Source: Cryobacterium soli
GTDB taxonomy: Bacteria > Actinomycetota > Actinomycetes > Actinomycetales > Microbacteriaceae
Direction of reading: 5' to 3'
Assembly (NCBI RefSeq): GCF_003611035.1
Contig: NZ_CP030033.1
Coordinates: 3,658,001-3,722,000 of the forward strand
Length of the DNA: 64,000 bases
Shown piece after piece: positions 1 to 18,879 of this stretch. The notes beneath the pieces are model-generated. The model made no database searches and was not told where the DNA came from. It saw only the letters and a list, made by a program, of their open reading frames with translations. The position numbers and the translations under genes are program-made. How positions within the stretch are numbered: the stretch's first letter is position 1; each line of letters starts with the position of its first letter.

Positions 1-477
1 GCCGTGGTCGGGTTCGTGGCGATCACCGCCGGCGGCCTCGAAGCACTGCAGCCGGCCGACCTGCTGCTGGCGGGCGCGGTCGCGCTCGCCGCGATCGGCT
101 ACGGCGAGGGCGCCCTGCTGTCCCGCGAGCTCGGCTCCTGGCAGACCATCTGCTGGGCCCTGATCGTGGCGCTGCCCGTGATGGTGCCGCTGATGCTCGT
201 CGGGCTCGGCTCCGGCTGGCCCCGGGCGGATGCGCCGGCCTGGCTGGCCTTCGCCTACCTCGCCGGGGTGAGCATGTTCCTCGGGTTCTTCGCCTGGTAC
301 CGCGGGTTGGCGATCGGGCCGATCGCCCGGGTGAGCCAGATCCAGCTCGTGCAACCCGTGCTCACGATAGTGTGGGCCGCCCTGCTGCTCGGGGAGCGGC
401 TCGACCTCGTGGTGCTGGTCGGCGCGGTCGCGGTGATCGCCTGCGCGGCGACCGCGGTGCGCGCCCGCATCCGCTGA
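1..477 (+). CDS. EamA/DMT-family transporter, C-terminal part (5' end outside window)
   Basis: The reading frame is open from base 1, so the gene begins upstream of the window. The visible 158 or so residues hold about five hydrophobic helices. The last part reads as the second EamA repeat, with YRGLAIGPIARVSQIQLVQP followed by an LLLGERL-type loop and a final helix, then a short Arg-rich tail before TGA. EamA proteins are inner-membrane exporters of small metabolites, including amino acids. The substrate cannot be told from sequence. It is the first gene before the IS110 element and the Pls-type synthetase, so an export role linked to that locus is possible but unproven. Confidence 0.85.
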   Translation, partial: AVVGFVAITAGGLEALQPADLLLAGAVALAAIGYGEGALLSRELGSWQTICWALIVALPVMVPLMLVGLGSGWPRADAPAWLAFAYLAGVSMFLGFFAWYRGLAIGPIARVSQIQLVQPVLTIVWAALLLGERLDLVVLVGAVAVIACAATAVRARIR

Positions 478-639
478 CGGCGCTCGCCACCGCCGCCCGA
501 AAGCGGTGCCCCGAGTGCACAACTCCTGCACTGTGACCTGGCTGCACCCCACGGCCCCCGGAAATCCGCCGTTGGGGCCGGCCGGGCGGGAAAATTGCAG
601 GAGCGGTGGACCCCCTTGGGGCACTGTGGGTACAGAAAA

Positions 640-885
640 TACGTCTGTGGTCGCGTTTGTGAGTCTGGCTTGCGGGGGCGATGTGGCGGATGATGTCGGT
701 GTCTGTCACGGCGACGCCGATCTTAACTTGGTGCTGTTTTGTGAGCCTGCGCAGGAGCGTGGTGTGGAGGACTCCCACGGGAACCGTGGATTGTTGCTAC
801 GAGCACGAGTGTTAGATTCCGTTTTTTGCCCCTGTCCTCCCCGTGACAGATCCGAATATTGGGTTGAACGGTGAGGAGTTGAATC
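640..885 (+). ncRNA. Candidate IS110 bridge (guide) RNA leader
   Basis: In the IS110 group of the IS110 family the bridge RNA is encoded in the non-coding left end upstream of the transposase (established for IS621). Here the equivalent stretch holds no convincing gene. It contains self-complementary elements: CCTGCGCAGG at 746-755 and the hairpin CCACGG-GAA-CCGTGG at 775-789. It is richer in T and less GC-biased than the flanking chromosome. The exact RNA ends, the donor loop and the target loop were not resolved by eye. The call rests on position and family knowledge, so it is an inference. Confidence 0.35.
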
Positions 886-2121
886 ATGGATGTTGTTCAC
901 GACCGGGCCGCGGGAATCGATGTGTCCAAGCGCGACGCGAAGGTCTGTGTTCGAGTGCCGGAGGGCAGGCCGGGACGGTTCACCACCACGGTGACAACGT
1001 GGGGGTCCACAACGAATCAGATCCTGGAGCTACGGGCGTATCTGATGCGTCACCAGGTGACGACGGTGATCCTGGAAGCGACCAGCGATTACTGGAAACC
1101 GTTCTACTACCTCCTTGAGGAAACCCTGCCGTTGATGCTCGTCAACGCGAAGGCTGCCCGGAATATGCCGGGCCGCAAAACCGATGTTGCCGACGCGGTC
1201 TGGCTGGCTGAATTAGCCGCGCACGGTTTGTTGCGGGCGTCGTTCGTGCCGCCGGAACCGATCCGGGAACTGCGCGATCTGACTCGGGCACGCGCGACCG
1301 TGGTCCGGGACCGGACCCGGGAGATCCATCGGTTGGAGAAGTTCCTAGAAAGCACCGGCATCAAGCTCTCTTCGGTCGTCACTGACCTCACCGGTGTTTC
1401 CGCCAGGGCCATGCTCGAAGCGTTGATCGCGGGCGAACACGACCCCGACGTCCTCGCGGAGTTGGCTCAAGGACGGATGCGGTCCAAGAAACCCGAACTC
1501 GTCGAAGCGTTGGTGGGCCGCTTCGGCGAGCACCACGCATTCATGACCCGCTCACACCTGGGCCAGATCGATGTGTTCACCGACCGCATCACCGAGCTGG
1601 ACGCGCGGATCGAGGCGTCGATGGCGCCCTTTCGTCCACTCCGAGACGCCCTCACCACCATCCCGGGAGTCTCAACCATCGTCGCTGACATGATCATCGC
1701 CGAGACCGGCGGTGACATGAATGTGTTCCCCACCGCTGAACAACTCGCGTCCTGGGCAGGCGTTTGTCCGGGCTCGAACCAGTCCGCGGGCCGCATCAAA
1801 TCCACCCACATCTTGCCCGGAAACAAGTACCTCAAAGCCGCTCTCGGCACTGCGGCGATAGCCGCCGCCCGGTCGAGGAACACTTACCTCGCCGCCCAAT
1901 ACCGCCGAATCACCGCACGCCGCGGCCGGCCCAAAGCGATCGTCGCTCTCGAGCACACCATCCTCACCGCGACCTGGAACATGCTCACCACCGGCGAGTG
2001 TTACACCGACCCCGGAGCAGACTTCTATGCGCGGCTCGCCCCGGAACGCACGAAGAACCGAGCCCTCAACCAGCTCCGCACACTCGGATACGACGTCACC
2101 CTCACACCGGCAGCCGCATGA
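886..2121 (+). CDS. IS110-family transposase/recombinase
   Basis: 411 residues, close to the usual IS110 length. The N-terminal RuvC-like DEDD domain starts with DRAAGIDVSKRDAKV (first catalytic Asp in GIDVSK), with VILEATSDYWKP as the Glu-containing second motif and KTDVADAVWLAEL as the third. A helical middle region follows. The C-terminal Transposase_20 domain holds TIPGVSTIVADMIIAETG and the conserved Ser-containing block SWAGVCPGSNQSAG. All key blocks are present, so the enzyme looks intact. It would cut and rejoin DNA at sites chosen by a bridge RNA. The ATG follows TGAGGAG by a normal distance. Confidence 0.95.
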   Translation: MDVVHDRAAGIDVSKRDAKVCVRVPEGRPGRFTTTVTTWGSTTNQILELRAYLMRHQVTTVILEATSDYWKPFYYLLEETLPLMLVNAKAARNMPGRKTDVADAVWLAELAAHGLLRASFVPPEPIRELRDLTRARATVVRDRTREIHRLEKFLESTGIKLSSVVTDLTGVSARAMLEALIAGEHDPDVLAELAQGRMRSKKPELVEALVGRFGEHHAFMTRSHLGQIDVFTDRITELDARIEASMAPFRPLRDALTTIPGVSTIVADMIIAETGGDMNVFPTAEQLASWAGVCPGSNQSAGRIKSTHILPGNKYLKAALGTAAIAAARSRNTYLAAQYRRITARRGRPKAIVALEHTILTATWNMLTTGECYTDPGADFYARLAPERTKNRALNQLRTLGYDVTLTPAAA

Positions 2122-2279
2122 CCTCACGTTTATTTTCGTGTTAGTTATGCGCATCGCCGGGCGGGATGGCGGGCAGGGGAGGAGAATGTGCCTGTGTGAC
2201 GTGCGTTCACCCGCCGGTTACCTGATCGTCTTAGGCTGGCCGCGTCGCGGTTCGTCGCGAAAGCCGGACAGGAGCGTGC

Positions 2280-5200
2280 GTGACCCCGAACCATCCAGAG
2301 CCCGATAAGCGCTCAGCCGACTCACTCGCCAGCACAGTCTCGATGCCGGCCACCACGTCGTTTCCCGGCACCGCGATCTCAGACCCGTATGTGCACGCCC
2401 ACGAGCAAGGCGTGCTGGATGCCGGCCATCTGGTGCACCCTGAGCGCACCCTCGTCGATATCCTGCGGGCCACCGCCGAGGAGTACCCCACCGCTCTGGC
2501 GCTCGAAGACGCCGCGGGGGCGCTCAGCTACCGCCGCCTGGTGCGGCTGGTCAGCGACCAGGCCGTGCAGCTCAGCCGCGCGGGCGTGCGCCGCGGCGAC
2601 ACCGTGGGCATCCGCATCCCGTCCGGCACCCGCGAGCTCTACCTGTCGATCCTGGCCACCCTCAGCGTGGGCGCCGCCTATGTGCCGGTGGACGCGGACG
2701 ACCCCGACGAACGTGCCCGGTTGGTGTTCGGCGAGGCCCATGTCGTGGGGGTGATCGGGGCCGGCGGCCGGTTCGCCGTGCGCGACGGCCTCGACGCCGG
2801 TGTGCTCACCGAGCGCCCGGTGCCGGCCGGGGAAGACCCGTCGCTGGCGCACTGGGGCGAGCCGATGCCGGGGCCCGACGACGACGCCTGGATCATCTTC
2901 ACGTCCGGCTCCACGGGTGTGCCCAAGGGTGTCGCCGTGACGCACCGCTCCGCCGCGGCGTTCGTGGACGCCGAGGCCGGGCTGTTCCTGGCCGGCGAAC
3001 CGATCGCGCCGGGCGACCGGGTGCTGGCCGGCCTCTCGGTGGCGTTCGACGCCTCCTGCGAGGAGATGTGGCTGGCCTGGCGGAACGGCGCGTGCCTGGT
3101 GCCGGCCCCGCGCTCCCTCGTGCGCAGCGGCGCCGACCTCGGCCCCTGGCTGATCGCGCACGGCATCACCGTGGTCTCCACGGTACCCACCCTCGCCGCG
3201 CTCTGGCCCGAGGAGGCACTGGAATCCGTGCGCCTGGTGATCTTCGGCGGCGAGGCCTGCCCACCCGAGCTGGCCGCCCGTATCAGCGGCCGCGGCCGCG
3301 AGGTGTGGAACACCTACGGCCCCACCGAGGCCACCGTCGTGGCCTGCGGCGCTCTGCTCGACGGCAGTGACCCCGTGCGCATCGGCCTGCCGCTGGACGG
3401 GTGGAGGCTCGCCGTGGTCGACGCCGACGGCGTCCGGGTGCCCGCCGGTGCGACCGGGGAGCTGATCATCGGCGGCGTGGGCCTGGCCCGCTACCTCGAC
3501 GCGACGCAGGATGCCGTGAAGTACGCCCCGTACGCCGGCCTCGGCTGGGACCGCGCCTATCGCAGCGGCGACCTGGTGCGCTTCGACCCCACCGGGCTCG
3601 TGTTCGTGGGCCGCGCCGACGACCAGATCAAACTCGGCGGGCGTCGCATCGAACTCGGTGAGATCGATGCGGCGCTGCAGGCCCTGCCGGGCGTGGCCGG
3701 TGCCGCCGCGGTGGTGCAGACGACCCCGGCCGGCAACCAGGTGCTGGTGGGCTACCTCTCTCTCGTCGACCCCGCCCCGGCCGGGCCGGCCGACCCCGCG
3801 GCCTTCGACCTGACCGCCGCCACCGAGGCCCTGCGTGTCGCGTTGCCGGCCGCGCTCGTGCCGTTGCTCGCCGTGGTCGACACCATCCCCACCCGCACCT
3901 CGGGCAAGGTCGACCGGGCCGCCCTGCCCTGGCCGCTGCCCAGCCTGGCCGGCGCCGGCACCGACACGGATGCGCTCACCCCCACGGCCGTCTGGCTCGC
4001 CGAGCACTGGGCCGCGATCCTCGGGCTGCCGGTCGCCGACGCCGACAGCGACTTCTTCGCCTACGGCGGCGGTTCGCTCTCGGCCGCCCAGTTCGTCTCC
4101 GCGATCCGGGAGCGCTACCCCGACACCCGGGTCAGTGACATCTACGACCACCCCCGCATCGGCGCGCTGGCCGCCGAACTCGACGGCCGCACCCCGCCGG
4201 TGGCCCGTCGGAGCCGCGCGGTGCTGCCCACCCCGGCGCGGAGCGGTCTGCTGCAGAGCCTGCTCGGCATCCCGCTGCACCTGCTCGTGGGCGCCAAATG
4301 GCTGGTCTACCTGGCCGCGGCCAACAACGTGCTGTCTGCCGCCGGCGCATCCTTCGCCCCCACAGTGTCGTGGTGGTGGATCCTCGCAGGGTTCCTCCTG
4401 CTCGTCACGCCGCTGGGCAAGATGGGCATCTCGGTGGCTGCGGCCCGGCTGCTGCTCCGGGGCGTCAAGCCGGGCGCCTACCCGCGCGGCGGATCGGTGC
4501 ACCTGCGGTTGTGGCTGGCCGAACAGGTGGCCCAGTTCGTCGACGCCGCCAGCCTGGCCGGGGCGCCGTGGATCAGCTACTACGCCCGCCTGCTCGGCGC
4601 CCGCATAGAACCCGGCGTCGACCTGCACTCGGTGCCGCCGGTCACCGGGATGCTCAGCATCGGCGAGCGCGCCGCGATCGAACCAGAGGTGGACCTGGCC
4701 GGGTATTGGCTCGACGGCGACACCCTACGCCTGGGGCAGGTGAAGATCGGCGCCGAGGCCGTGATCGGCTCCCGCAGCACGCTGCTCGGCGGCGCGAAGA
4801 TCGGCGCCGGCGCCGAGATCGAACCGGGCTCCGCGGTCTCCGGCCGGGTCCCGGCCGGCGAACGCTGGGCCGGCTCACCCGCCGCCCGGGTCGGCTCCGC
4901 CCGGCACGCCTGGCCGGCCGAGCGCCCGCCGAGCGCCCGCCGCTGGCTGCTCGCCTACGGTGCCGGCTCGGTCGGTCTCACCGCCATCCCCACGGCCGCG
5001 GTGCTGCTCGGCGTGCTCATCGTCGGGCTGCTCGTAGGGGATGCCGCCAGCCTCGGCGCCGCCGTGGGCCGTGCGGCCCTGGCCGTGCCGCTCGCGGTGC
5101 TCGCCGCCGGCCTGCTCTACGCCGGGGCCGTGATCGGCGCGGTGCGGCTGCTCGGCTTGGGGCTGTCCGAGGGGCACCATCCGGTGCGCAGCCGCGTGGG

Positions 5201-6338
5201 CTGGCAGGTCTGGATGACCGAACGCTTGCTCGACGGCGCCCGCACCCTGCTCTTCCCGGTCTACGCGAGCCTGATCACCCCGGTGTGGCTGCGGTTGCTC
5301 GGCGCCAAGGTCGGCCCCGGCGTCGAGGCCTCCACGGTGCTGCTCGTGCCCGCGCTCACCACCATCGCGCCCGGCGCGTTCCTGGCCGACGACACCATGG
5401 TCGCCTGCTACGAGCTCGGCGGCGGCTGGATGCGCATCGACCGGGCCAAGATCGGCCGCCGGGCGTTCCTGGGCAACAGCGGCATCGCCGGCCCCGGCCG
5501 CACCGTGCCACGGGACGGCCTCGTGGCCGTGCTCTCCTCCACCCCGCGGAAGGCCAAGCGCGGCTCGTCCTGGCTGGGCAACCCGCCGGCGCGGCTGCGT
5601 CGCCGGGTCACCGACATCGACGAGGCCCGCACCTTCCACCCGCCGGCGCGGCTGCGGCTGGCCCGGTCGCTCTGGGAATTGCTGCGCCTGGTGCCGGTGT
5701 TTGTCTCCGCCTGGATCGCCCTCGGCGTGCTGGCCGTGCTGGAGACGCTCTGGCTTGCGGCCGGCCCCGGCTGGGCGCTGCTGCTGTCCGGGTTCGTGCT
5801 CATCGGCGCGGGCGTGGTCGCGGCGGCGGTCAGCACGGCTGCCAAGTGGCTGCTCGTGGGCCGCATCCGCGCCACCGAGCATCCGCTCTGGTCGTCGTTC
5901 ATCTGGCGCAACGAGGTGTCCGACACCTTTGTGGAGATGGTGGCCCGGCCCTGGTTCGCGCAGAACGCGTCGGGCACCCCGGCCCTGGCGCTGTGGCTGC
6001 GCTCGCTCGGCGCCCGGATCGGCCGGGGCGTGTGGTGCGAGTCGTACTGGCTGCCCGAGGCGGACCTGGTCACCCTCGCCGCCGGCAGCAGCGTCAACCG
6101 CGGCTGCGTGGTGCAGACGCACCTGTTCCACGACCGGATCATGCAACTGGACACCGTGCACATCGGCGCCGGCGGCACCCTGGGGCCCAACAGCGTGATC
6201 CTGCCCGCGGCTCGGATCGACGACCATGCCACCGTAGGGCCCGGCTCCCTGGTGATGCGCGGTGAGCGGGTGCCCACCGACTCGCTCTGGGCCGGCAACC
6301 CGATTGCGCCGTGGCACCGTCCGCCATGGAAGACTTGA
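2280..6338 (+). CDS. Pls/PosA-family single-module non-ribosomal peptide synthetase (poly-lysine synthetase-like)
   Basis: 1352 residues starting at GTG after AGGAG. The order is an adenylation domain (about residues 40-545; A3 FTSGSTGVPKG near 205, A5 NTYGPTE near 343, A8 GRADDQIKLGGRRIELGE near 443, A10 SGKVDRAALP near 537), one carrier domain with GGGSLS near 596, and a membrane part of about six helices. The membrane part alternates with three left-handed beta-helix acyltransferase-like regions (about 780-870, 1003-1107, 1240-1346). There is no condensation or thioesterase domain, which is the hallmark of epsilon-poly-L-lysine synthetase and relatives. Aligning by hand to GrsA gives the pocket code D-A-E-S-I-G-T-V-V-K, near published lysine codes. 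The substrate and chain length are inferred, the family is clear. Confidence 0.93.
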   Translation: MTPNHPEPDKRSADSLASTVSMPATTSFPGTAISDPYVHAHEQGVLDAGHLVHPERTLVDILRATAEEYPTALALEDAAGALSYRRLVRLVSDQAVQLSRAGVRRGDTVGIRIPSGTRELYLSILATLSVGAAYVPVDADDPDERARLVFGEAHVVGVIGAGGRFAVRDGLDAGVLTERPVPAGEDPSLAHWGEPMPGPDDDAWIIFTSGSTGVPKGVAVTHRSAAAFVDAEAGLFLAGEPIAPGDRVLAGLSVAFDASCEEMWLAWRNGACLVPAPRSLVRSGADLGPWLIAHGITVVSTVPTLAALWPEEALESVRLVIFGGEACPPELAARISGRGREVWNTYGPTEATVVACGALLDGSDPVRIGLPLDGWRLAVVDADGVRVPAGATGELIIGGVGLARYLDATQDAVKYAPYAGLGWDRAYRSGDLVRFDPTGLVFVGRADDQIKLGGRRIELGEIDAALQALPGVAGAAAVVQTTPAGNQVLVGYLSLVDPAPAGPADPAAFDLTAATEALRVALPAALVPLLAVVDTIPTRTSGKVDRAALPWPLPSLAGAGTDTDALTPTAVWLAEHWAAILGLPVADADSDFFAYGGGSLSAAQFVSAIRERYPDTRVSDIYDHPRIGALAAELDGRTPPVARRSRAVLPTPARSGLLQSLLGIPLHLLVGAKWLVYLAAANNVLSAAGASFAPTVSWWWILAGFLLLVTPLGKMGISVAAARLLLRGVKPGAYPRGGSVHLRLWLAEQVAQFVDAASLAGAPWISYYARLLGARIEPGVDLHSVPPVTGMLSIGERAAIEPEVDLAGYWLDGDTLRLGQVKIGAEAVIGSRSTLLGGAKIGAGAEIEPGSAVSGRVPAGERWAGSPAARVGSARHAWPAERPPSARRWLLAYGAGSVGLTAIPTAAVLLGVLIVGLLVGDAASLGAAVGRAALAVPLAVLAAGLLYAGAVIGAVRLLGLGLSEGHHPVRSRVGWQVWMTERLLDGARTLLFPVYASLITPVWLRLLGAKVGPGVEASTVLLVPALTTIAPGAFLADDTMVACYELGGGWMRIDRAKIGRRAFLGNSGIAGPGRTVPRDGLVAVLSSTPRKAKRGSSWLGNPPARLRRRVTDIDEARTFHPPARLRLARSLWELLRLVPVFVSAWIALGVLAVLETLWLAAGPGWALLLSGFVLIGAGVVAAAVSTAAKWLLVGRIRATEHPLWSSFIWRNEVSDTFVEMVARPWFAQNASGTPALALWLRSLGARIGRGVWCESYWLPEADLVTLAAGSSVNRGCVVQTHLFHDRIMQLDTVHIGAGGTLGPNSVILPAARIDDHATVGPGSLVMRGERVPTDSLWAGNPIAPWHRPPWKT

Positions 6339-6345
6339 CCCCGTT

Positions 6346-7680
6346 ATGTTGTCTCCCACGCCTCCCATCATCGGCTCCACGTCAGCGGGCGACCCCTACC
6401 TGCCGGCGAGTGGGAACGGCGGCTACCAGGTCGAGCACTACGACCTGGTGCTCGACTACCGGGTCTCCTCCAATCGGCTGACCGCGACCGCCACGATCAC
6501 CGCGCGCGCCCTCACCCGGCTCGACCGGTTCAGCCTCGACCTGGCCGGCCTCAGCGTCGACAAGGTCACCGTGGCCGGGCGGATGCCCACCAAGACCACG
6601 CACACCGCCCGCAAGCTGGTGCTCACCCCAGCCGTGCCGCTGCAGCCGGGCGAGCGATTCGACGTGGTCGTGGCGTACCGCGGTGCGCCGCACCCGGTGC
6701 GCAGCCACTGGGGCGAGCTGGGCTGGGAGGAACTCACCGACGGCGTGCTCGTCGCCGGGCAACCGAGCGGCGCACCGTCGTGGTTCCCCTGCAACGACCA
6801 CCCCAGCGACAAGGCCACGTTCCGCATCCAGCTCAGCTGCGAGGCCCCGTACACCGTGGTGAGCAACGGGCCGCTCGTGGCCAAGACCAGCAGGTCCGGC
6901 CGCACCACCTGGACCTTCGAGGTGCGCGAGCCGATGGCCGCCTATCTGGCCAGCGTGCAGATCGGCCGGTACCGCCGGCAGGACGTGACCGCCACCCCGG
7001 TGGCCTACAGCCTCTTCTACCCGCCCGCGCTGGCCCGGCCGGTCGCGGTGGACTTCGCCAGGCTGGGCGACATGATTTCAGTGTTCGGTGAGGCATTCGG
7101 CCCCTACCCGTTCCCGGCGTTCTCCGTGATCGTCACGGCTGATGAGCTGGAGATCCCGCTCGAGGCGCACGGGTTGGCCGTGTTCGGCCGCAACCACGTG
7201 GACGGCCTGCACGGCAGCGACCGGCTCATCGCCCACGAGCTGGCCCACCAGTGGTTCGGCAACAGTCTCACCCTCACGCGGTGGGCGGACATCTGGCTGC
7301 ACGAGGGCTTCGCCTGCTACGCCGAGTGGATCTGGGCGGAGGCCAGCGGCGGACTCACCGCGCACGAGAGCGCGGTGCAGCACCGGGCCGAGGTCGACCT
7401 GCTGCCCAAGAACATCGTCGTCGGCGACCCCGGCCCGCAGGACATGTTCGACGACAGGGTCTACAAGCGCGGCGCCCTGGCCCTGCACGCCGTGCGCCAG
7501 GCCATCGGCGATGAGGCCTTCTTCACGGCGCTCCGCGCGTACACGCGCACCCACCGGCACGGCAGCGTCACCACCGACGACCTGCTCGGCTGCTTCGATG
7601 TGGCCTCCGGTACCCGCGTCGCCGACAAGATCATCGCCCGCTGGGTGTCGGGCAAGAGCCTGCCGCCGCTGGCCGCCTAA
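6346..7680 (+). CDS. M1-family zinc metallopeptidase (aminopeptidase)
   Basis: 444 residues from ATG 6346, only 7 bases after the synthetase stop, so co-transcription is likely. An earlier in-frame ATG at 6262 lies inside the synthetase and is not preferred. The N-terminal beta domain starts GYQVEHYDLVLDYRV. The zinc site HELAHQWFGN (near residue 299) is followed 18 residues later by the ligand Glu in WLHEGFACYAEW. The exopeptidase loop reads LEIPLEAHGLAVFG rather than GAMEN. No signal peptide is seen, so it is probably cytoplasmic. It is shorter than PepN because the C-terminal helical domain is missing. Position beside a Pls-type gene suggests it hydrolyses the polymer or its precursor. Confidence 0.92.
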   Translation: MLSPTPPIIGSTSAGDPYLPASGNGGYQVEHYDLVLDYRVSSNRLTATATITARALTRLDRFSLDLAGLSVDKVTVAGRMPTKTTHTARKLVLTPAVPLQPGERFDVVVAYRGAPHPVRSHWGELGWEELTDGVLVAGQPSGAPSWFPCNDHPSDKATFRIQLSCEAPYTVVSNGPLVAKTSRSGRTTWTFEVREPMAAYLASVQIGRYRRQDVTATPVAYSLFYPPALARPVAVDFARLGDMISVFGEAFGPYPFPAFSVIVTADELEIPLEAHGLAVFGRNHVDGLHGSDRLIAHELAHQWFGNSLTLTRWADIWLHEGFACYAEWIWAEASGGLTAHESAVQHRAEVDLLPKNIVVGDPGPQDMFDDRVYKRGALALHAVRQAIGDEAFFTALRAYTRTHRHGSVTTDDLLGCFDVASGTRVADKIIARWVSGKSLPPLAA

Positions 7681-8070
7681 CCTGCCGCCGGCCGGGGCTC
7701 GCGCGCCCGACGTCCACGAGGCGCCGCCCAAGTCACAGTCGGCAGCCGGGACGGGGCACTTCGAGGCGACTCGAGCGAACGTTCTCGCCGCATCCGTCAC
7801 GGGCCGCGACCTGCCCGGCGGATGCCCGGGGAGGGTTTCGTGCGGACGCCATGCGAGCAGCGCGTCTCCGGGCCGGTTTCCGCAAGCCAGACTCCTCGGC
7901 TCGCTCGACCCCCTGTGCTCCGTTCGATGAGTTGTCACTTTGCGCCCGCACACGCTCACCGAATGGCCGACGTGCACCGCGTGGCCAGCGCGCCCGCGCA
8001 CGAGTGCGTGTTCCATCACGATCGAGTTCTCCCCGATGCTGATCGCGCCGCCGACGCCACTGCAGGCGAA
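7681..8070. other. Gene-free interval
   Basis: About 390 bases between the M1 peptidase and the convergent Cys-rich protein gene. No frame on either strand shows a recognisable protein, and no strong terminator or repeat was seen. Confidence 0.5.
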
Positions 8071-8475
8071 CTACACGGTGTCGGGCTCGAAGACCTCGAA
8101 GACCTCCAGAAGCGCGGTGCAGGCCGCGATGGCGCGGTGGGCGGCGGGACCGCAGGAGGCCCAGTGCGGGCGGCCCGGCAGCATCCGCTCGCAGGCCGCC
8201 ATCGAGACGGATGCGGCCTCACGACAGGCGCGCAGCAGGGCCTGCGTCGTGGGCCCGTCGGTGCCGGAGCGCCAGCCCAGCAGCCGGGTCGTGGCCGCGC
8301 AGACCTCCACGCAGTCCAGGTCAGCCAGGAAGCATGTCGTGACGACCCCGTCGCCGCCCAGCCGCAGGCAAGCCTCCGCACAGTCCTCACTCACCCGCTC
8401 GAGCTCGGCGCAGGCGTCGATGCAGTCCTGTACCTCTACAGGTGGGGCTATGGTCAACCGTTTGGCGTCCATCAC
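8071..8475 (-). CDS. Cys-rich four-helix-bundle protein, copper-storage (Csp/DUF326)-like
   Basis: 134 residues with cysteines spaced as in four-helix copper-storage proteins: CIDAC, then CAEAC, CFLADLDCVEVC, RACREAASVSMAAC and a final HWASC ... AAC block. About twelve Cys would line the inside of a helical bundle and bind Cu(I). No signal peptide is visible, so it would be a cytosolic Csp3-type protein. It is transcribed divergently from the P-type ATPase. The shared 160-base interval could carry a metal-responsive promoter, but no operator was recognised. The start could also be the second ATG one codon in. Family call is by motif only. Confidence 0.75.
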   Translation of the reverse strand: MMDAKRLTIAPPVEVQDCIDACAELERVSEDCAEACLRLGGDGVVTTCFLADLDCVEVCAATTRLLGWRSGTDGPTTQALLRACREAASVSMAACERMLPGRPHWASCGPAAHRAIAACTALLEVFEVFEPDTV

Positions 8476-8636
8476 CTCACGCTAATCCCGACGACCGGGA
8501 CGGTGCCAGCCCTGCGCCGATTCGGCTGTCGCCGGCACACCGCGCGGCCGTCGTGGCGACTACGGTGCGATCGCGGAGAGGCGGAGGTAATGTGGCCGGT
8601 GCCGGCCGTGGCCGGGCGGGTGAGAAGGGACACACG

Positions 8637-11027
8637 GTGACCATTGCTGCGACCGGGTTGAGTGCCGTTGAGGTTGAGGAGCGCGTGGCCACCGGCCGTA
8701 CCAACGCCTTCGTGCAAGACACCAGCCGGAGTATCTGGAGCATCCTGCGTGCCAACGTGCTCACCCTGTTCAACGGCATCATCCTGGCCTGCTTCCTTGT
8801 TCTGCTCGCGATCGGGCGATGGCAAGACGCTCTGTTCGGCTTCAGCGCCATCGCGAACGCGGTCATCGGCACGGTGCAGGAGTACCGCGCGAAGCTGGCG
8901 TTGGACCGGCTGGCGCTCCTGAACGCACCGAACGCCCGCGTGCTGCGCGAGGCGGGGGAGGAGGAGATCCCGATCGAGGCGGTCGTGCTCGACGACATCC
9001 TCGTCTTGCGGGCCGGCGATCAGGTCGCTGCCGACGCAATCGTGACCGGCTCCCGCGGCCTTCAACTCGACGAGTCCATGCTCACCGGCGAATCGGATGC
9101 CGTCGAGAAGTCCCCGGGCGACCGGGTGCTGTCCGGCTCCGTCGTTGTAGCCGGGGAAGGCACCGGCGCCGTCGACAGGGTGGGCGCCGACTCCTTTGCC
9201 AATTCCCTCGCTGCCGAAGCGAAGAAGTTCTCCCTGGTGGCGTCGGAGCTCCGCTCGTCGATCAACCGGGTGCTCACCTGGGTGGCCTGGATCATCGGGC
9301 CGATCGCGCTGTTGGTGCTGAACGCCCAGATGGTCGCGCAGGGTGGCTGGGAAGATGCGACCGCCAGCGGGGCGTGGCGGGACGCGGTCACCGCCACCAT
9401 CGCCGCCGTCGTGGCGATGGTGCCGCTCGGGCTGGTGCTCATGACGAGCATCACTTTCGCGGTGGGAGCCGTGAAGCTGGCCCGGCAGCAGGTGCTCGTG
9501 CAGGAACTGCCCGCCGTCGAGGGGCTGGCGCGGGTGGACCTGATCTGCCTCGACAAGACGGGAACTCTCACGCAGGGCGACATCGTCTTCGATGCGGCGC
9601 ATCCGTTGACCGCCGTGACCGGTTGGCAGGGCGTGCTGGCCTGGTACGGGATTCAGAACGATGCGAACGCGACCGCGCGCAGCCTGGCCGGGCGATTCGA
9701 CGACCCGGTCGGGGAGGAACCGCTGGACCGGGTTCCGTTCTCGTCCGCCCGCAAGTGGAGCGCCGTGATCTTCGGCGACGGCATGTGGGTTCTCGGCGGG
9801 CCCGAGATGGTCTTCCCGGCCGCCGCTTCCGGAGACCCGGTGCTGCAGGAGCTTGCCAGCCGGGCCGGAGAGCTTGCCGCGACCGGCCGGCGCACCCTGG
9901 TTCTCGCGCACGGCAGCCCCACCCACGACGAAACCGTGCCCGTGGACGCCGTGCCGGTTGTGCTGCTCACGTTCAAGGAGAACATCCGGCCCGACGCCGC
10001 CGAAACGCTCTCCTTCTTCGCCGCGCAAGGCGTGGGCGTGCGGATCATCTCGGGGGACAACCCGCAGACCGTCGCGGCGATCGCCCGTGAGGTGGGTCTG
10101 GATGCGCCGTCCGGCTTCGACGCCCGCGAACTGCCGGACACCGACGCCGAGTTGCTCACGGTGCTCGACGACTACCTGGTGTTCGGCCGCGTGACGCCCG
10201 ACCAGAAGCGTCGCATCGTGGTGGCTCTCAAATCGGCCGGGCACACCGTGGCCATGACCGGCGACGGTGTGAACGACGCGCTCGCCATCAAGGAGGCGGA
10301 CATCGGCGTGGCCATGAACTCCGGCGCGGCCGCCACGAAGGCCGTGGCCCGGCTGGTGCTACTCGACGGACGCTTCTCACATCTGCCCAGCGTCGTGGCG
10401 GAGGGGCGGCAGGTGATCGCGAACATCGAACGCGTCTCGATGCTCTTCCTCACCAAGACGTCGTACGCGACGTTCCTCGCGATCACCTTCGGCATCCTCC
10501 TGCTCCCGTTCCCGTTCCTGCCCCGGCAGCTCTCGGTCACCGACGGGCTCACCATCGGCATCCCGGCGTTCTTCCTCGCGCTGCTGCCCAACGCGCAGCG
10601 CTACGTGCCCGGGTTTCTCCGCCGCTCCCTGACCTTCGCGGTCCCGGCCGGTCTGGCCGTGACCTTCGGCCTGGCCGTCTACGCGCGGCTCGCGGCGGAC
10701 CTGGCGATCCCGGAGGCGGAGATCCGCAGCGGGTCCACCCTCATCCTCACCATCATCGGCCTGTGGATCCTCGTGGTGCTGTCCCGTCCCGTCACGCGCT
10801 TCAAGGGGCTCGTCATCGGAACCATGATGATCGGGCTGGTCCTGATGTACACGCTGCCGATCAGTCGCGACTTCCTGCAGCTGGTGGACCTCACCCTGGC
10901 CACGGCGGTGCTCGCGCTGGGCACCTCACTGGTGTGCATCGCACTCATCGAGATCGTGCGGTTCGTGCACCGGCGGGTCTCCCGCCGCGACGCGGAGCGG
11001 GCGTCGCGTCAGCGCATCGCGAAATAG
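8637..11027 (+). CDS. Cation-translocating P-type ATPase, CtpE-like
   Basis: 796 residues from GTG 8637, preceded by GAGAAGGGA; upstream in-frame sequence to 8442 is not conserved-looking. Domains in order: N-terminal actuator with LDESMLTGESD, membrane pair, phosphorylation motif DKTGTLTQ (Asp near residue 305), nucleotide domain, GDNPQT, hinge MTGDGVNDALAIKEADIG (near 541), and six C-terminal helices. The helix before the phosphorylation site reads VPLGL, not CPC, and there is no N-terminal heavy-metal domain, so a copper pump is unlikely. Length and motifs resemble mycobacterial CtpE, a calcium-uptake ATPase. The 3' end overlaps the convergent gene by 19 bases. Confidence 0.85.
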   Translation: MTIAATGLSAVEVEERVATGRTNAFVQDTSRSIWSILRANVLTLFNGIILACFLVLLAIGRWQDALFGFSAIANAVIGTVQEYRAKLALDRLALLNAPNARVLREAGEEEIPIEAVVLDDILVLRAGDQVAADAIVTGSRGLQLDESMLTGESDAVEKSPGDRVLSGSVVVAGEGTGAVDRVGADSFANSLAAEAKKFSLVASELRSSINRVLTWVAWIIGPIALLVLNAQMVAQGGWEDATASGAWRDAVTATIAAVVAMVPLGLVLMTSITFAVGAVKLARQQVLVQELPAVEGLARVDLICLDKTGTLTQGDIVFDAAHPLTAVTGWQGVLAWYGIQNDANATARSLAGRFDDPVGEEPLDRVPFSSARKWSAVIFGDGMWVLGGPEMVFPAAASGDPVLQELASRAGELAATGRRTLVLAHGSPTHDETVPVDAVPVVLLTFKENIRPDAAETLSFFAAQGVGVRIISGDNPQTVAAIAREVGLDAPSGFDARELPDTDAELLTVLDDYLVFGRVTPDQKRRIVVALKSAGHTVAMTGDGVNDALAIKEADIGVAMNSGAAATKAVARLVLLDGRFSHLPSVVAEGRQVIANIERVSMLFLTKTSYATFLAITFGILLLPFPFLPRQLSVTDGLTIGIPAFFLALLPNAQRYVPGFLRRSLTFAVPAGLAVTFGLAVYARLAADLAIPEAEIRSGSTLILTIIGLWILVVLSRPVTRFKGLVIGTMMIGLVLMYTLPISRDFLQLVDLTLATAVLALGTSLVCIALIEIVRFVHRRVSRRDAERASRQRIAK

Positions 11028-11416
11028 CGCCGGCCCGGCCCGACCCACAGCGGCAGGACCACGGCTGCCACCAGGACCAGCTGGATCGTCACCCCCGACC
11101 AGTCCCCGTCGTCGGCGACCACCAGGTCGATGACCGAGAGCGCCAACCCCAGCAGGATCACCACGGTCGCGCCCAGCCGCGACGCCCTGCTGCCGCGCGC
11201 GACGCCCGACGCGAGGGCCACCACGAACAGGCCGAACAGGATGATGCCGGCTCCGACCAACGTGACGCCGAGCGCGATACCGTCGGCAGCCACGTCGGGG
11301 GCGTAGCGCAGGAAGAGGGTCACGATCCCGAGCGCGATCTGGGTGATCCCGCCGATGTACATCAGGACCACGGCCCAGGTGACCCAGCCGGGGCGGGAGG
11401 GTTCGTCGCCTGTCAT
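11009..11416 (-). CDS. Small integral membrane protein, unknown function
   Basis: 135 residues from ATG at 11416 (a longer frame to 11566 has an implausible Arg/Cys-rich leader). Four hydrophobic stretches are visible: WVTWAVVLMYIGGITQIALG, a GIALGVTLVGAGIILFGLFV segment, LGATVVILLGLALSVIDLVV and VTIQLVLVAAVVLPLWVG. It resembles the DUF7144-type or other four-helix actinobacterial membrane proteins, but no motif assigns a role. Its end overlaps the end of the convergent P-type ATPase gene. Confidence 0.7.
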   Translation of the reverse strand: MTGDEPSRPGWVTWAVVLMYIGGITQIALGIVTLFLRYAPDVAADGIALGVTLVGAGIILFGLFVVALASGVARGSRASRLGATVVILLGLALSVIDLVVADDGDWSGVTIQLVLVAAVVLPLWVGPGRRYFAMR

Positions 11417-11589
11417 GACAGTAGGACACCGTTCGCGCGGTGGTGCAGCCTGTACGTCATCGAAACCGGCCTCCTCGCCGATGCGGTCAGGCTGCAGGCT
11501 GTCGAACTGACAGGGCAGCCAACCGATGTTGCGGTCAGGATACCGACGCAACATCCGTCTGTGCAATCACCGCCGAGAGGGTGACACGA

Positions 11590-11627
11590 ACGAGCCCCGC
11601 CCTGCCCGAAGGCAGGACGAGGCTCGT
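11590..11627 (-). terminator. Hairpin terminator after the repeat-rich M1 peptidase gene
   Basis: CGAGCC (11591-11596) and CCTGCC (11601-11606) pair with GGCAGG (11611-11616) and GGCTCG (11621-11626) around a CGAA tetraloop, with a small internal mismatch. It lies just past the stop of the minus-strand peptidase and before the head of the neighbouring gene. The T-run is weak. Confidence 0.65.
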
Positions 11628-11659
11628 CGGCTGAACGGATCGGCCGCTGGCCGTCGCGG

Positions 11660-14600
11660 CTACTTCACCGTGGCCGTCTTCGCGCTGGTGTTGTACAGCG
11701 TGACGTAGCCGGGCTTGGTGGCGGTCACCTTCACCGTGATGCTCTTACCCGCGAGAGCCGGGGTGAGCTTCAGCGTTTTGGTGTTGCCACCGATCGCGTG
11801 CAGGTTGGCGTACCAGGTGTACGACAGCGTGACGCCGGCGTCGTACGTCGCCGTCTTCACCGCCAGAGTCTGGCCGACCTTGGCCGTGCCGGTGATGGTC
11901 GCTCTCGGGGAGAGCGTCTGCACTCCTGCGACGATGCGCTTTCCGGCACTCGTCTTGCTGGCCGACGTGTACCCGGCCTTCGAACCGGTCACCCGGACGG
12001 CGACGCTGTGGGCGTTGTCCGCGGCGACGGGTTTGTAGGCAGTGCCGGTCGCTCCGGCGATCGCCTTGCCGTCTCGGAGCCACTGTATCTTCAGAGCGGT
12101 CCCGGAATCCCAGGTGCCTGTCGTGGCGGTGAGCGTCCGGCCCACCTGAGCTGTTCCGGTGACGACAGGGACCGGCGTCGCCGACAGGGTTCCGGCGGCA
12201 ATGGAGGCTGTCGCACGGCTCGTCCGGATGACCGTGGCATAGCCGGCCTTCGACCCCGTCACTGTGACGGTCAGGGTATGACCGTTGTCTGCGGCGATCA
12301 ATTTGTAGGCCGTGCCGGTCGCTCCGGTGATCGGCTTACCGTCTCGGAGCCACTGCGTTTTCAGTGCGGTACCGGTGTCCCAGGTGCCCGTCGCAGCGGT
12401 GAGCGTCCGGCCGACCCGTACCGTTCCGGTGACGACCGGGACCGGCGTCGCCGACAGAGTGCCGACAACAACGGACGCTGTCGAGCGGCTCGTCGTGGTG
12501 AGTGAGGCGTAGCCCTTCTTGGATCCGGTCACCGAGACGGCCAGCGCGTGTGCGAGGTCCGCAGCGGCCACTGTGTACGATCCGCCGTTCGCTCCGGCGA
12601 TCGCCTTGCCGTCTCGGAGCCACTGGATGCGGAGCGACGTCCCGGCGTCCCACGTTCCGGTGGCGGCCTTGACGACCTTGCCCACCTGCACCGTGCCGGT
12701 GATGGTGGGGACCGGAGTCGCCACCAGACTGCCGGACGCGACCTTGGCCGTAGCCGTGCTGGTCGTGCTCAGCGGCGCGTATGCGGTCTTGGTGCCGGTC
12801 ACTGTGACGGTGATCGTCGAGCCGACAGTGTTCGCGGTCGGACTGTACGTCGCCCCGGTAGCGCCGGAGATCGCCACACCGTCGGCAAGCCACTGGTAGG
12901 CCAGGGTCGCCCCGTCGTCCCAGGTGCCGGGGACGACGGTGAGCGCGACGCCCACCTTCGGTGCGCCTTGGATGAGAGGAACCGGTGTCGACGTGAGATG
13001 CCCAGCGGCGACCTTGCGGGTCGCCGTGCTGGAGGTGACAACCGTGGCGTACCCGGTCTTGGTGCCTGTGACCGTGACGGTGATGACCGAACCGAGCTGG
13101 TTCGCTGCGGGGGTGTAGGTCGGGCCGGTGGCGCCCTCGACGGGTGTGCCGTCGACGTTCCACTGGAAGGTCAGGTCGGTGTCCGCGTCCCAGGTGCCCG
13201 GATCGGCTGTGAGTTCGACGGCGACCTGGGCGGTTCCGGTGATGGTGGGAACGGGCGCGTGCACCAGGGTCCCGGGAACGACCGCCTTGGTGGGCTCGCT
13301 GGATTCGGAGACCGTGACGTACCCGGTCTTGGTGCCTGTGACCGTGACGGTGATGACCGAACCGAGCTGGTTCGCTGCGGGGGTGTAGGTCGGGCCGGTG
13401 GCGCCCTCGACGGGTGTGTCGTCGACGTTCCACTGGTACGTCAGGTCGGTGCCCTCGTCCCAGGTGCCCGGATCGGCCGTCAGGTCGAGGCCGACCTGGG
13501 CGGCTCCGGTGATGGTGGGTACGGGCGCGTGCACCAGGGTCCCGGGAACGACCGTCTGGGTGGGCTCGCTGGATTCGGAGACCGTGACGTACCCGGTCTT
13601 GGTGCCCGTGACCGTGACCGTGATGACCGAACCAAGCTGAGCGCCGGCGGGGGTGAAGCTCGCGCCGGTGGCGCCGTCGACGGCTACGCCGTCGGCCATC
13701 CACTGGTAGCTGAGCGTCGAGCCCTCATCCCAGGTGCCGGGGTGAGCGCTGAGTTCGACATTCACCCGAGCGGTTCCGCTGATGGTCGGCGTCGGCGTGA
13801 AGCTCAGGGCTCCGGCCGCGATGGGGGCCGTCGGGTTGCTCGTCTTGGACACGTCAGCGTAGGAGTCCTTGGTGCTCGTGACGGCGACCGTGATGGTGTC
13901 GCCCACCATGCTCGCCTCGACGGCGAAGGTGAGGCCGCTGGCCCCGTCGACCGCGGTACCGTTCCTCAACCACTGGTAGCGGAGAGCGGTTCCGGAATCC
14001 CACACGCCGGGATCCACTGTCAATGTGGAATCGACCTGTGCCGATCCACTGATCACCGGGGTGGGCGTGAGGGTCTGGGCGGCGGGCGCGATCTTGACCG
14101 AGTCGCTGGACACCGTGACCGGTGAGAACCCGATCTTGGTGCCGGTGACGGACACGACGAGTGATCCACCGATCTGGCCGATCAAGGGCGTGTAGCTCGC
14201 GCTCGTCGCACCGCTGACGGGAACGCCGTCCACCGACCACTGGTAGCTGTACGTTGTGCCGTCCGCCCAGAATCCGGGCACGGCCTGGACAGGCGACTGT
14301 GCTCGCGGTGTGGAGGAGAGCGTGGGGGATGGAGGCGTCGTGAAGGCGCCGGCGGCAACGGCAGCGGATGCCGCGCTCGTGCGGGCGAGGGTCGTGTAGC
14401 CGGCCTTCGTGCCCGTGACGGTGACGGCGAGGGTCTGCCCCAGTTGCGTCGCCACAGCAGGGGTGTAGACCGGAGCGGTGGCGCCCGAGATCGGGGCGCC
14501 GTTTGCGGACCACTGGTAGGTGAAGTACGCACCGGAATCCCAGGTTCCCGGGTCGACGGAGAGCGGCTTCCCGAACTGCGGGGTTCCGACGATCACCGGC

Positions 14601-16864
14601 GTGGACGCCGCGAACGTCGCTCGCGTCACAACGGCGGAGGCCGCGCTTGTCGTGGTGACCGGGGATGAGGAGCCGTTGGATCCGGTGGTCTTCAGCGTCA
14701 GGGTAAGACCGAGCGTTCCAGGTGTGGGGGTGTAGGTGTTGTTCGTGGCGCCGTCGATGGGCGTACCGTCGACAAACCACTGGTAGGACAGCTTTGTGCC
14801 CGCGCCCCATCCGGCGGTGTCTGCGGTGAACGGCTGGCCGACGGAAGGGGTGCCGGTGAAGGTCGGCACCGCTGACGGAGCAACCGGCTCGGCGCCGATG
14901 ACGAGACTCGGTGAGCAGTCAATGCAGGTCGAGCCCAGCGTGTCGGCTCTCGCGACGGCGCTGAGGGTTGCCCCGACGGTGCCGGCGCGGGGCACGGCCG
15001 TGAACGACGCCGTCGTGGTGGCGCCGACCGCCGTCGACGGCACGGCCCAGGTGAGCGTGGCGCCCGAAATCGTGACGCCCTCCGGAAGGGTGCCCAGTTC
15101 CGCCTTGTCGACGATCTTGCTGATGTCGACCGTCACCGTGCTGCCCGCTTGAACGACCTTGCCCGTGTTGCGGCTGGTGAGGGTGTAGGTGGCGGTGTCG
15201 CCCTCGTTGAGAGGTGCAGCGGGGCCGGTGAGGCTGAGGTTGAACTTCGCGGGCCACGCCGGCTTGCCCGGCGTGTAGATCCAGGAGGCGAAGAACGCCG
15301 TGAGATCGCGGCCCGAAATCTCCTCGGCCAGGTCGATGAACTCCGCGGTGCTCCTGCTTGTGCCCGTGTGTCGGAGCTGGTCCTGCTGCATGACCTGCGC
15401 GAAGTTCGCCGCTCCGATGGCGGTGCGCAGTGCCTCCAGCGCGATCGAACCCCGCGTGTAGGTCTGGTTGCCGAAGAGCTGAGATGCCTGAGTCATCTTG
15501 GCGGTCGGAACGGTCCAGAGCGAGCTGGTCGACGAGGCGGAATTCCAGGCGGAGTAGTAGGACGTTTCGGGGGAGTTGGCTGTCGAGCCGGCGCTTTCGA
15601 AGGGGACCTGCTGCTCGGTGTACGTCGCCGATCCCTCGTTGAGCCAGATGTCATTCCAGTCTTTCGGGGAGACACCGTCACCGAACCACTGGTGCATGAT
15701 CTCGTGGATCGCAGTGCCGCGACTGGCGCTGTTCGGGAAGAACGAGCGGTCCTGGGTCTCCAGGGCATAGTTGATGGCCGAGGGGACGATATCGGTGACG
15801 AAACCCACGCTCTTGCCGGGGTAAGGGCCGTACTTCGACTCCAGGAAGTCGAGGATCGACTTCAGCTGGGCTCGGGTGGCATGGGTGGTGGCCTGGTTGG
15901 CCACCGAGATCGCCGGGTCGATGAACGTCCATTCGTGGAGGGTGCGTCCACTGGCCAGCAGGATGTCCGATTCATAGCTCGTGTACCGGCCCACCGAGAT
16001 CAGAACCAGCTCGCTCGCCATGGGCTTGGTCTCATCCCACTGCCAGGTGGTGCGGCTGCCGTCGGCGCTGGGCGTCCGGGAGATCAACTCTCCGTTGCTC
16101 ACCACGGCAGCGTCCCGCAGACCTGGATTGGCGGTGGCGGCGGTGGCCGATGTGCCCAGCTTGCTCGGGGCGTCGACCGTGATCGTGTACGTCGCCTTGT
16201 CGCTGGGCGTGTTGTTGTTCGGGAAAGCGGTCATGGCCCCGACAGGCTGGTTGACGAACGTGGCACCGTCGGTGGTGTTGTTCCACCCCTCGGACGAACC
16301 ATCGGTGTCGGTGTGCGCGACCGGTGTGCCGGAGTACTTCACGACGGTGGTGAAGGTGCCGTCGACGGGTGTGGCCGGTGTGACGATGAGCTTGTGCACA
16401 TCCGTTGTCGCATTGGCGGTGGTGGTGTTCTCGATGCGCGTGAACGTCGCCGCCGCTCCATTCACGGAGACAGATTCCACGTTGAGCGTGCTCGCCTCGA
16501 GGGTGCTCGTGGAACCCTGGAAATCGAAGGAGTAGGACGACAGGGGGCCGGCGGTGGTGGCGGCCTGAATCGAGGCGGTCGCCGCGGAGATGGTGGTGGA
16601 GGAGACAGCGTTGTTGGTGGCCGAGACGGCGACCTTGACGGACATGTTGATGTCGTAGTGCAGGGCGTCGTAGCCGGAGTTGCCCTGATTGGGGAACAGT
16701 GTGTCACCGGACGTCTGACCGCCGGCGGCTGCATCGGCCGCGTGGGCGGAGGCGGAGACCGGGATCTGGCTGCCCGCGACAAGCCCGGTGATCAGCAGCG
16801 CGGCTGCCGCTCGGTTGGCTCGCCTGTTCGGTTGCCGGGATGGGGGGAATCGGTATTCGTGCAT
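11660..16864 (-). CDS. Secreted M1-family metallopeptidase with about 12 C-terminal Ig-like repeats
   Basis: 1734 residues from ATG 16864; GAGGAG lies about 11 bases upstream. A long signal peptide has an Arg-rich start, the core AAAALLITGLVAGSQIPVSA and a likely AxA cleavage near HAADA. The M1 catalytic region has HEIMHQWFGD (near residue 387) followed by the Glu ligand in WLNEGSATYTE. A DUF11/CARDB-like linker follows, then from about residue 665 twelve repeats of about 85 residues built on G(T/S)WD.G..L.YQW...G..I.GAT..TY.P. No LPXTG or membrane anchor is seen at the C-terminus, which ends ...KTATVK. It probably degrades extracellular peptides while bound to wall or polysaccharide. Confidence 0.92.
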   Translation of the reverse strand: MHEYRFPPSRQPNRRANRAAAALLITGLVAGSQIPVSASAHAADAAAGGQTSGDTLFPNQGNSGYDALHYDINMSVKVAVSATNNAVSSTTISAATASIQAATTAGPLSSYSFDFQGSTSTLEASTLNVESVSVNGAAATFTRIENTTTANATTDVHKLIVTPATPVDGTFTTVVKYSGTPVAHTDTDGSSEGWNNTTDGATFVNQPVGAMTAFPNNNTPSDKATYTITVDAPSKLGTSATAATANPGLRDAAVVSNGELISRTPSADGSRTTWQWDETKPMASELVLISVGRYTSYESDILLASGRTLHEWTFIDPAISVANQATTHATRAQLKSILDFLESKYGPYPGKSVGFVTDIVPSAINYALETQDRSFFPNSASRGTAIHEIMHQWFGDGVSPKDWNDIWLNEGSATYTEQQVPFESAGSTANSPETSYYSAWNSASSTSSLWTVPTAKMTQASQLFGNQTYTRGSIALEALRTAIGAANFAQVMQQDQLRHTGTSRSTAEFIDLAEEISGRDLTAFFASWIYTPGKPAWPAKFNLSLTGPAAPLNEGDTATYTLTSRNTGKVVQAGSTVTVDISKIVDKAELGTLPEGVTISGATLTWAVPSTAVGATTTASFTAVPRAGTVGATLSAVARADTLGSTCIDCSPSLVIGAEPVAPSAVPTFTGTPSVGQPFTADTAGWGAGTKLSYQWFVDGTPIDGATNNTYTPTPGTLGLTLTLKTTGSNGSSSPVTTTSAASAVVTRATFAASTPVIVGTPQFGKPLSVDPGTWDSGAYFTYQWSANGAPISGATAPVYTPAVATQLGQTLAVTVTGTKAGYTTLARTSAASAAVAAGAFTTPPSPTLSSTPRAQSPVQAVPGFWADGTTYSYQWSVDGVPVSGATSASYTPLIGQIGGSLVVSVTGTKIGFSPVTVSSDSVKIAPAAQTLTPTPVISGSAQVDSTLTVDPGVWDSGTALRYQWLRNGTAVDGASGLTFAVEASMVGDTITVAVTSTKDSYADVSKTSNPTAPIAAGALSFTPTPTISGTARVNVELSAHPGTWDEGSTLSYQWMADGVAVDGATGASFTPAGAQLGSVITVTVTGTKTGYVTVSESSEPTQTVVPGTLVHAPVPTITGAAQVGLDLTADPGTWDEGTDLTYQWNVDDTPVEGATGPTYTPAANQLGSVITVTVTGTKTGYVTVSESSEPTKAVVPGTLVHAPVPTITGTAQVAVELTADPGTWDADTDLTFQWNVDGTPVEGATGPTYTPAANQLGSVITVTVTGTKTGYATVVTSSTATRKVAAGHLTSTPVPLIQGAPKVGVALTVVPGTWDDGATLAYQWLADGVAISGATGATYSPTANTVGSTITVTVTGTKTAYAPLSTTSTATAKVASGSLVATPVPTITGTVQVGKVVKAATGTWDAGTSLRIQWLRDGKAIAGANGGSYTVAAADLAHALAVSVTGSKKGYASLTTTSRSTASVVVGTLSATPVPVVTGTVRVGRTLTAATGTWDTGTALKTQWLRDGKPITGATGTAYKLIAADNGHTLTVTVTGSKAGYATVIRTSRATASIAAGTLSATPVPVVTGTAQVGRTLTATTGTWDSGTALKIQWLRDGKAIAGATGTAYKPVAADNAHSVAVRVTGSKAGYTSASKTSAGKRIVAGVQTLSPRATITGTAKVGQTLAVKTATYDAGVTLSYTWYANLHAIGGNTKTLKLTPALAGKSITVKVTATKPGYVTLYNTSAKTATVK
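11663..14880 (-). repeat. Tandem coding repeats (about 12 Ig-like modules) inside the M1 peptidase gene
   Basis: Each module is about 255-260 bases. Modules 6 and 7 (around 13060-13560) and modules 10 and 11 (around 12060-12440) are nearly identical at DNA level, so they arose by recent duplication or gene conversion. The outermost modules have diverged strongly. Copy number is likely to vary between strains. Confidence 0.85.
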
Positions 16865-17272: not shown

Positions 17273-18028
17273 CTATCCGACCCGGGCGGGCATCACGTAC
17301 AGCTCCGGGCGGCAGGCGCCGACGATGGCGACGGTCGCCGCGGTTCCTGGGGGAGAGGACACCGGCAGCAGGTGCAGCGCGGTCGGGGGAAACGGAGACT
17401 GAGGCCAGTCGACGAGTCGGCGGCGCGCCATCGTGGCGTTTGGCCCTGGGGCGGTGGCGGGCCCGTCGAGAGAGACGGTGAGGTCACGGGGGTCGACCCG
17501 GAGACCCACCCCGGCGACCTTGAGTATCGCCTCTTTCGTGGTCCACAGTGCGGCCACTGCTGCTTGGGCGACGTGCGGGGACAACGCGCTCAGGGCATCC
17601 GTTTCGGCTGGGGACAGCAGAACGTCGGTGATCGGTGCCCGGGCGAGGTCGGCGAGCGACTCGAGGTCGATGCCCACCGGGCCGGCGGCGGTGACCGCAA
17701 GGGCCAGCCGCCCGCCCGCCCGGGCCAGGCTCACCCAGGGCGCGACGGAGGTGGAGCCCGCGATGCTCACCCGCAATGGGCCGTGGTCGCCCGCGCCGCA
17801 GCGGGGGCATCGTTGGGTGAGGGTGACGGATGCGGCGTCCACGCCGGTCAACCGGGCCACCAGCTCGGCGAGGAGGGCATGGTCGCCGGCCTTGGTGTCC
17901 GCGCAGTCGCCCAGCGCCACGACCACGGTGTGCGGCAGATCGACCGCGGAGGGGCCGCCGCTCGGCCGGGCGTTGCCCGGCGGACCAGTCGACGGCAGGC
18001 CGTTGACGGGGGCGGGAGTATCGGGCAC
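17273..18028 (-). CDS. 4'-phosphopantetheinyl transferase, Sfp-type
   Basis: 251 residues from GTG 18028. The family signatures are VGIDLE (magnesium-binding Asp and Glu) and WTTKEAILKVAGVGL, spaced as in Sfp/AcpT-type enzymes. A CPRCGAGDHGPL block precedes them. The enzyme moves phosphopantetheine from CoA to the serine of carrier domains. The only carrier domain in this window is the one in the Pls-type synthetase about 11 kb away (GGGSLS), so that protein is a plausible client, by inference. The N-terminal 25 residues are Pro/Gly-rich and the true start may be further in. Confidence 0.9.
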   Translation of the reverse strand: MPDTPAPVNGLPSTGPPGNARPSGGPSAVDLPHTVVVALGDCADTKAGDHALLAELVARLTGVDAASVTLTQRCPRCGAGDHGPLRVSIAGSTSVAPWVSLARAGGRLALAVTAAGPVGIDLESLADLARAPITDVLLSPAETDALSALSPHVAQAAVAALWTTKEAILKVAGVGLRVDPRDLTVSLDGPATAPGPNATMARRRLVDWPQSPFPPTALHLLPVSSPPGTAATVAIVGACRPELYVMPARVG

Positions 18029-18198
18029 GCCCTCACCCTAACGCCGCCGGCCTTCGGCGGGGTCTGGCGCTGGCAAACCGCCTGCGTGGCCCTTGTTCGG
18101 GGGCCGTGCGGGTGCGAGAATCAACGGGACCAGCCCTTCTGGATGCACGTTGGCGTGCGAGGGCTGTCGAGGCTCCAGGCGCGGTGGGTGAGGATTCA

Positions 18199-18816: not shown

Positions 18817-18879
18817 CGCCCGGCTGTGCGGTGCGCCCCTCCGCTGGTGGCACACTTGTACGGCGAGTGAGGAGCAGCA

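Follow-up and report, generated by a model that had tools for sequence, protein, structure and literature searches.

A synthetase and peptidase gene pair in Cryobacterium soli that is most likely an epsilon-poly-L-lysine operon

What is made by a nonribosomal peptide synthetase whose gene is followed almost at once by that of a zinc peptidase? The question is raised by positions 2280-7680 of a 64,000-nucleotide stretch of the Cryobacterium soli genome (contig NZ_CP030033.1, positions 3,658,001 to 3,722,000), hereafter the window, where the two genes lie 7 bases apart on the forward strand. Judged from sequence, the pair is most likely a pls-pldII operon for epsilon-poly-L-lysine (epsilon-PL), to which we assign a probability of about 0.88. 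This assignment is built on features that are directly established, namely the domain make-up of the synthetase, the identity of its substrate pocket, the adjacency and conservation of the two genes, and a single candidate transferase in the genome. A sequence-only reading of the same stretch had proposed a poly-lysine cassette, and the pocket identity with a solved epsilon-PL synthase and the conserved pairing described below support that interpretation. Possession of the genes does not in itself show production of the polymer.

The synthetase gene (2280..6338, + strand) starts at a GTG and encodes 1352 aa with the A-T-C1C2C3 order of Pls enzymes. Residues 658-1342 match TIGR02353, the NCBIfam family of Pls/PosA non-ribosomal peptide synthetases, at 726.7 bits against a cut-off of 423.1, and phmmer places the protein with the solved structure 7WEW. 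Pfam recognises an AMP-binding domain, a single PP-binding domain at residues 572-633 and hexapeptide repeats, and reports neither a condensation nor a thioesterase domain in the protein. By this architecture the synthetase belongs to the Pls class, and the one adenylation (A) domain, one carrier (T) domain and membrane modules seen by the sequence-only reading hold with their coordinates, as does the M1 peptidase gene behind them. The A domain (2442..3944, +) was delimited by phmmer alignment to 7WEW (residues 31-508), and the T domain (3993..4178, +) carries a GGGS motif in its PF00550 match. The remaining part (4251..6305, +) is the putative membrane polymerisation region, in which TIGR02353, the hexapeptide repeats, the hydrophobic segments and an AlphaFold model together suggest beta-helix-like segments parted by hydrophobic helix pairs. 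The hydrophobic segments fall at residues 660-722, 894-963, 1017-1037 and 1130-1193, which is not a clean set of the six helices in three pairs expected of Pls. For the C-terminal 702 residues AlphaFold, given 17 sequences, produced a model of middling confidence (pLDDT 73.5, pTM 0.80), with the helix pairs present and the third beta-helix poorly modelled.

Which amino acid the enzyme would activate can be read from its pocket. Among solved structures the best relative of the A domain is 7WEW, which bears the name epsilon-poly-L-lysine synthase (phmmer E 1e-186, 630 bits), with 316 of 470 aligned residues identical (67%). We located the ten GrsA pocket positions through core motifs rather than by superposition of structures; at these positions the alignment gives DAESIGTVVK in the window protein and in 7WEW alike (10/10). 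The same ten residues had previously been read by eye and called lysine-like on an 8/10 agreement with D-A-E-S-I-G-S-V-C-K, presumably the code of the lysine domain of bacitracin synthetase; the match to 7WEW is the closer one. A neutral amino acid as substrate was rejected because all ten pocket residues are shared with 7WEW.

Activation of another diamino acid (ornithine, diaminobutyrate, diaminopropionate or beta-lysine), giving a different cationic polymer, deserves more attention, since members of TIGR02353 do this (PMC10522769; here and below, papers are cited from excerpts of their text) and epsilon-poly-beta-lysine is likewise built from a C6 diamine. The excerpt gives DMEHNGTVSK for PosA, an ornithine enzyme, and DGESISVVNK for the beta-lysine enzyme, and places Ala at pocket position 2 in lysine enzymes, Met in ornithine enzymes and Phe in PDAP and PDAB enzymes. 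The window synthetase has Ala there, not Phe, and its code differs from both the PosA and the beta-lysine code, which makes all of these substrates unlikely. PosA itself, identified as 8G95 in PMC10522769, scores 202 bits where 7WEW has 630. The excerpt of PMC8117764 moreover describes the peptidase neighbour as a context unlike that of the other three synthetases compared there, and this neighbour is absent from the Phe-pocket copies discussed below. We give a different diamino acid only a very small chance, and lysine stands as the probable substrate.

The second gene (6346..7680, +; ATG start, 444 aa) encodes a two-domain M1 zinc peptidase that is PldII-type by position. Pfam finds just the two N-terminal M1 domains, Peptidase_M1 (PF01433) and Peptidase_M1_N (PF17900). 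The catalytic residues have the HExxH-18-E arrangement: HELAH occupies residues 297-301, Glu320 follows across an 18-residue spacer, and Glu273 stands at the position equivalent to GxMEN; both histidines and the glutamate of HExxH, Glu320 and Glu273 are invariant in all 109 relatives of the protein. Every NCBIfam match of this peptidase, and of the transferase considered below, stays under the curated cut-off, while both proteins pass in Pfam. No signal peptide is visible by eye in the 444-aa protein, an inspection made without a predictor. The nearest solved structures are 6A8Z and 6IFF (215 and 212 bits, residues 10-442), two-domain M1 proteins named zinc metalloprotease in the PDB; we know of no epsilon-polylysine activity for either. 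PldII we take to be an M1 member, which fits the pairs annotated on plasmids: one Streptomyces and one Kitasatospora plasmid record carry the same annotated pair. Synthetase relatives were seen on 19 of 72,556 plasmid records, from ten actinobacterial genera as listed. In Streptomyces albulus, according to PMC9223678, pldII sits behind pls in translational coupling with it and encodes the major epsilon-PL-degrading enzyme.

Conserved synteny of the two genes, a check set beforehand, is present. A contig search for synthetase relatives, of which the best 80 of at least 592 were analysed and which is thus biased to close relatives, found an M1 gene behind the synthetase in the same orientation in 80 of 80, within 200 bases in 75. 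The nearest named relative among the matches listed is Cryobacterium sp. 1639 (L008), whose synthetase is 87% identical. Together with 29 of 29 family loci, 109 of 109 relatives read carry both the code DAESIGTVVK and the downstream same-strand M1 gene. Across 299 genomes of the family, Microbacteriaceae, the synthetase exceeds the cut-off in 117, including 6 of 6 in the genus (own genome included). An M1 gene scoring >350 bits lies close by on the same strand at 116 of 120 such places, where 26-178 bases part the end of the domain match from the beginning of the peptidase match; both genes are found in 116 genomes, the synthetase alone in 1, the M1 gene alone in 1 and neither in 181, in counts that take related genomes to be independent of one another. 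The ten-residue code was read at 33 of the 116 adjacent places (L001, L088-L116 and three genus mates). A chance neighbour was rejected by this survey, because of the profile scores and the adjacency at 116 of 120 places.

At three of the four family places where the pairing breaks, the pocket differs as well. These three (L156, L157, L163) are second synthetase copies in three genomes of genus g72, with the code DFECLSVVTK and without an M1 match over the 16 kb examined, and probably make another diamino-acid polymer. A wider phylum survey gave synthetase matches at E <= 1e-50 in 15 of 296 genomes; of the 19 places that lie in other genomes, 13 were read, and nine have the lysine code, 9/9 with an M1 gene behind, and four distant ones have neither. 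In the loci read, the M1 peptidase thus accompanies the lysine pocket and not TIGR02353 as such. At the four distant places (L145, L146, L153, L154) the adenylation and membrane parts apparently lie on separate frames. Their broken codes, such as DIWQSTADDK at L153, were discounted, as no single A-T-C frame was read.

Several observations weigh against an epsilon-PL operon. The C-terminal model gave 255 Foldseek matches in the PDB at E <= 10 and none at E <= 0.001, the top ones (all E > 0.001) being serine, galactoside and maltose acetyltransferases; the model agrees with the beta-helix reading without proving it. The M1 gene lies 586-2128 bases away in 5 of the 80 contig-search loci, and the four distant TIGR02353 places, 26-34% identical in pieces, lack an M1 match over the 7.7-16 kb examined. 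One genome (G219) has a synthetase with no M1 match, but its contig ends inside the gene (L164, 6624 bases, with the match reaching 6618). Another (G293, L165) has a close M1 gene, 42% identical, and no synthetase over the cut-off; this may be a relic, or a gene that detoxifies polymer from other producers. It could also be taken to mean that the M1 gene is a general aminopeptidase merely adjoining pls, as could the two further M1 genes in the C. soli genome. We consider this very improbable, given the near one-to-one co-occurrence, the absence of the peptidase beside the three Phe-pocket copies, and the degradation of epsilon-PL by PldII in the same position (PMC9223678). Published results on chain trimming disagree: in PMC9223678 chains became longer when pldII was repressed, and the same paper cites an earlier inactivation that left the 25-35 range unchanged.

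To these come indications that the pair, although genuine, may be silent in this strain, yielding little or no product naturally. A stretch of ~1.7 kb (479-2185) with an IS110 transposase gene (886..2121, +; NF033542, 257.5 bits) lies between an EamA gene (4-477; PF00892, 65.9 bits), upstream of the IS110 stretch, and the synthetase leader. Corynebacterium variabile offers a precedent: according to the excerpt of PMC8117764, Pls from its operon was seen to make epsilon-PL only in S. coelicolor under the S. albulus promoter, and no epsilon-PL was found in C. variabile cultures or in C. glutamicum with expressed protein. Set against silence are the two intact reading frames with the M1 catalytic residues kept, and the retention of the synthetase in all six genus genomes searched. 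The 94-base leader (2186..2279, +), with an AGGAG sequence resembling a ribosome-binding site, is intact as well and is common to L008 and the genus mate L138, though in L139-L142 the blastn matches stop short of it. We consider a silent pair unlikely yet worth keeping in view, and compatible with a pls-pldII operon as the best explanation of the enzymes.

If the operon is expressed, the following course can be proposed. The A domain of Pls would activate L-lysine as the adenylate, and lysine would be loaded onto the phosphopantetheine arm of the T domain. The three-part membrane-bound C-terminal portion would then join lysines singly, presumably via the epsilon-amino group, and deliver epsilon-PL, with export a predicted part of this step. 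The M1 peptidase may cut the isopeptide polymer, which would protect the producer and possibly serve trimming or recycling.

How would the carrier be activated? A 4'-phosphopantetheinyl transferase gene, Sfp-type by length and context, lies at 17273..18028 on the - strand (PF01648, 45 bits, cut-off 25; TIGR00556, 28.9 bits, below its cut-off of 45.35), and its product would attach the phosphopantetheine arm. The genome holds two PF01648 matches, this one and an AcpS-like one close to frames taken to be alr and glmS. It also holds two PF00550 matches, the window synthetase and an acyl carrier protein whose neighbouring frames were taken to be FabH and FabF; Condensation has no match at E <= 0.001 anywhere in the genome. 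With just these matches and no Condensation domain, the transferase in the window probably serves the window synthetase by elimination. In L008 and the genus mates L138-L142, 1344-1624 bases lie between the synthetase and the start of the transferase match, which comes after the peptidase, is read from the opposite strand and is followed by corA. An opposite-strand transferase was found in 16 of the 80 contig-search loci, examined up to 10 kb downstream. The proposal of the sequence-only reading that this transferase activates the carrier thus gains from synteny in six Cryobacterium relatives and from elimination within the genome. A broader idea, for which we see the odds as even, is that Cryobacterium and other Micrococcales hold a three-gene unit of pls, a pldII-type peptidase and a convergent transferase, bringing its own carrier activator and hence allowing a self-contained cationic polymer in a cold-living genus where no other nonribosomal synthesis was detected. 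The window strain, in which ~9.6 kb parts the transferase from the pair, would then be a variant.

The surrounding DNA shows where the window departs from its relatives. By blastn, positions 1-478 align with L008 9391-9868 and positions 2186-7671, colinearly, with L008 9908-15307, and the IS110 stretch has no match in L008 or L138-L142. At the same site L138 has 1.4 kb with a TerC-family frame and no blastn similarity to the IS110 stretch. The extra stretch downstream (7672-17322) likewise has no blastn match in L008 and L138-L142; it contains a P-type ATPase gene (8442-11027) and a large M1 gene, and no exact repeats of >=14 bases were found between its edges (7601-8500 and 16801-17500). The large gene (11660-16984, -) encodes an M1-type peptidase of 1774 residues. 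By eye its N-terminus resembles a signal peptide, and the protein carries about twelve tandem repeats, each 88-90 residues long. It matches NF040485 (ZirU) at 92.6 bits, below the cut-off of 100, and, lying 4 kb from the pls operon, is possibly a second, secreted M1 enzyme. A search with 4227 RNA families found none at gathering score in positions 1-20000.

The suggestion of novelty in the sequence-only reading does not stand for the arrangement, as the pls-pldII pair has already been published from Streptomyces and Corynebacterium (PMC8117764, PMC9223678). The excerpt of PMC8117764 also mentions Pls homologs in Microbacterium and Arthrobacter isolates, among others, and clusters of this class, which antiSMASH labels NAPAA, are reported from Subtercola and Herbiconiux, both members of the same family (PMC9287328, PMC10011130). 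Our literature searches found no report of polylysine or NAPAA in Cryobacterium; the only paper joining Cryobacterium and poly-L-lysine, known from its listing, concerns Greenland fungi and algae. Novelty is confined to the genus and the linked transferase. With this pair a known pathway to an antimicrobial polymer reaches a genus from which those searches found no report, and its Pls and degrading enzyme may be adapted to cold. The code-dependent M1 pairing is a useful annotation rule, and the understanding of pls-type systems is unchanged.

Among known systems, the window pair most resembles Pls and PldII of Streptomyces albulus, with the same A-T-C1C2C3 architecture, the same ten pocket residues and a peptidase gene directly behind. 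It differs in an A domain that is 67% identical, in the nearby transferase gene and in the upstream IS110 stretch, and is known here from its genes. The Corynebacterium variabile operon likewise joins a Pls and a peptidase in a coryneform actinobacterium, but of a different bacterial family and with its Pls proven by heterologous expression (PMC8117764). PosA of Acinetobacter baumannii, a delta-poly-L-ornithine synthetase, shares the TIGR02353-type architecture and differs in its pocket and its substrate, ornithine (PMC10522769).

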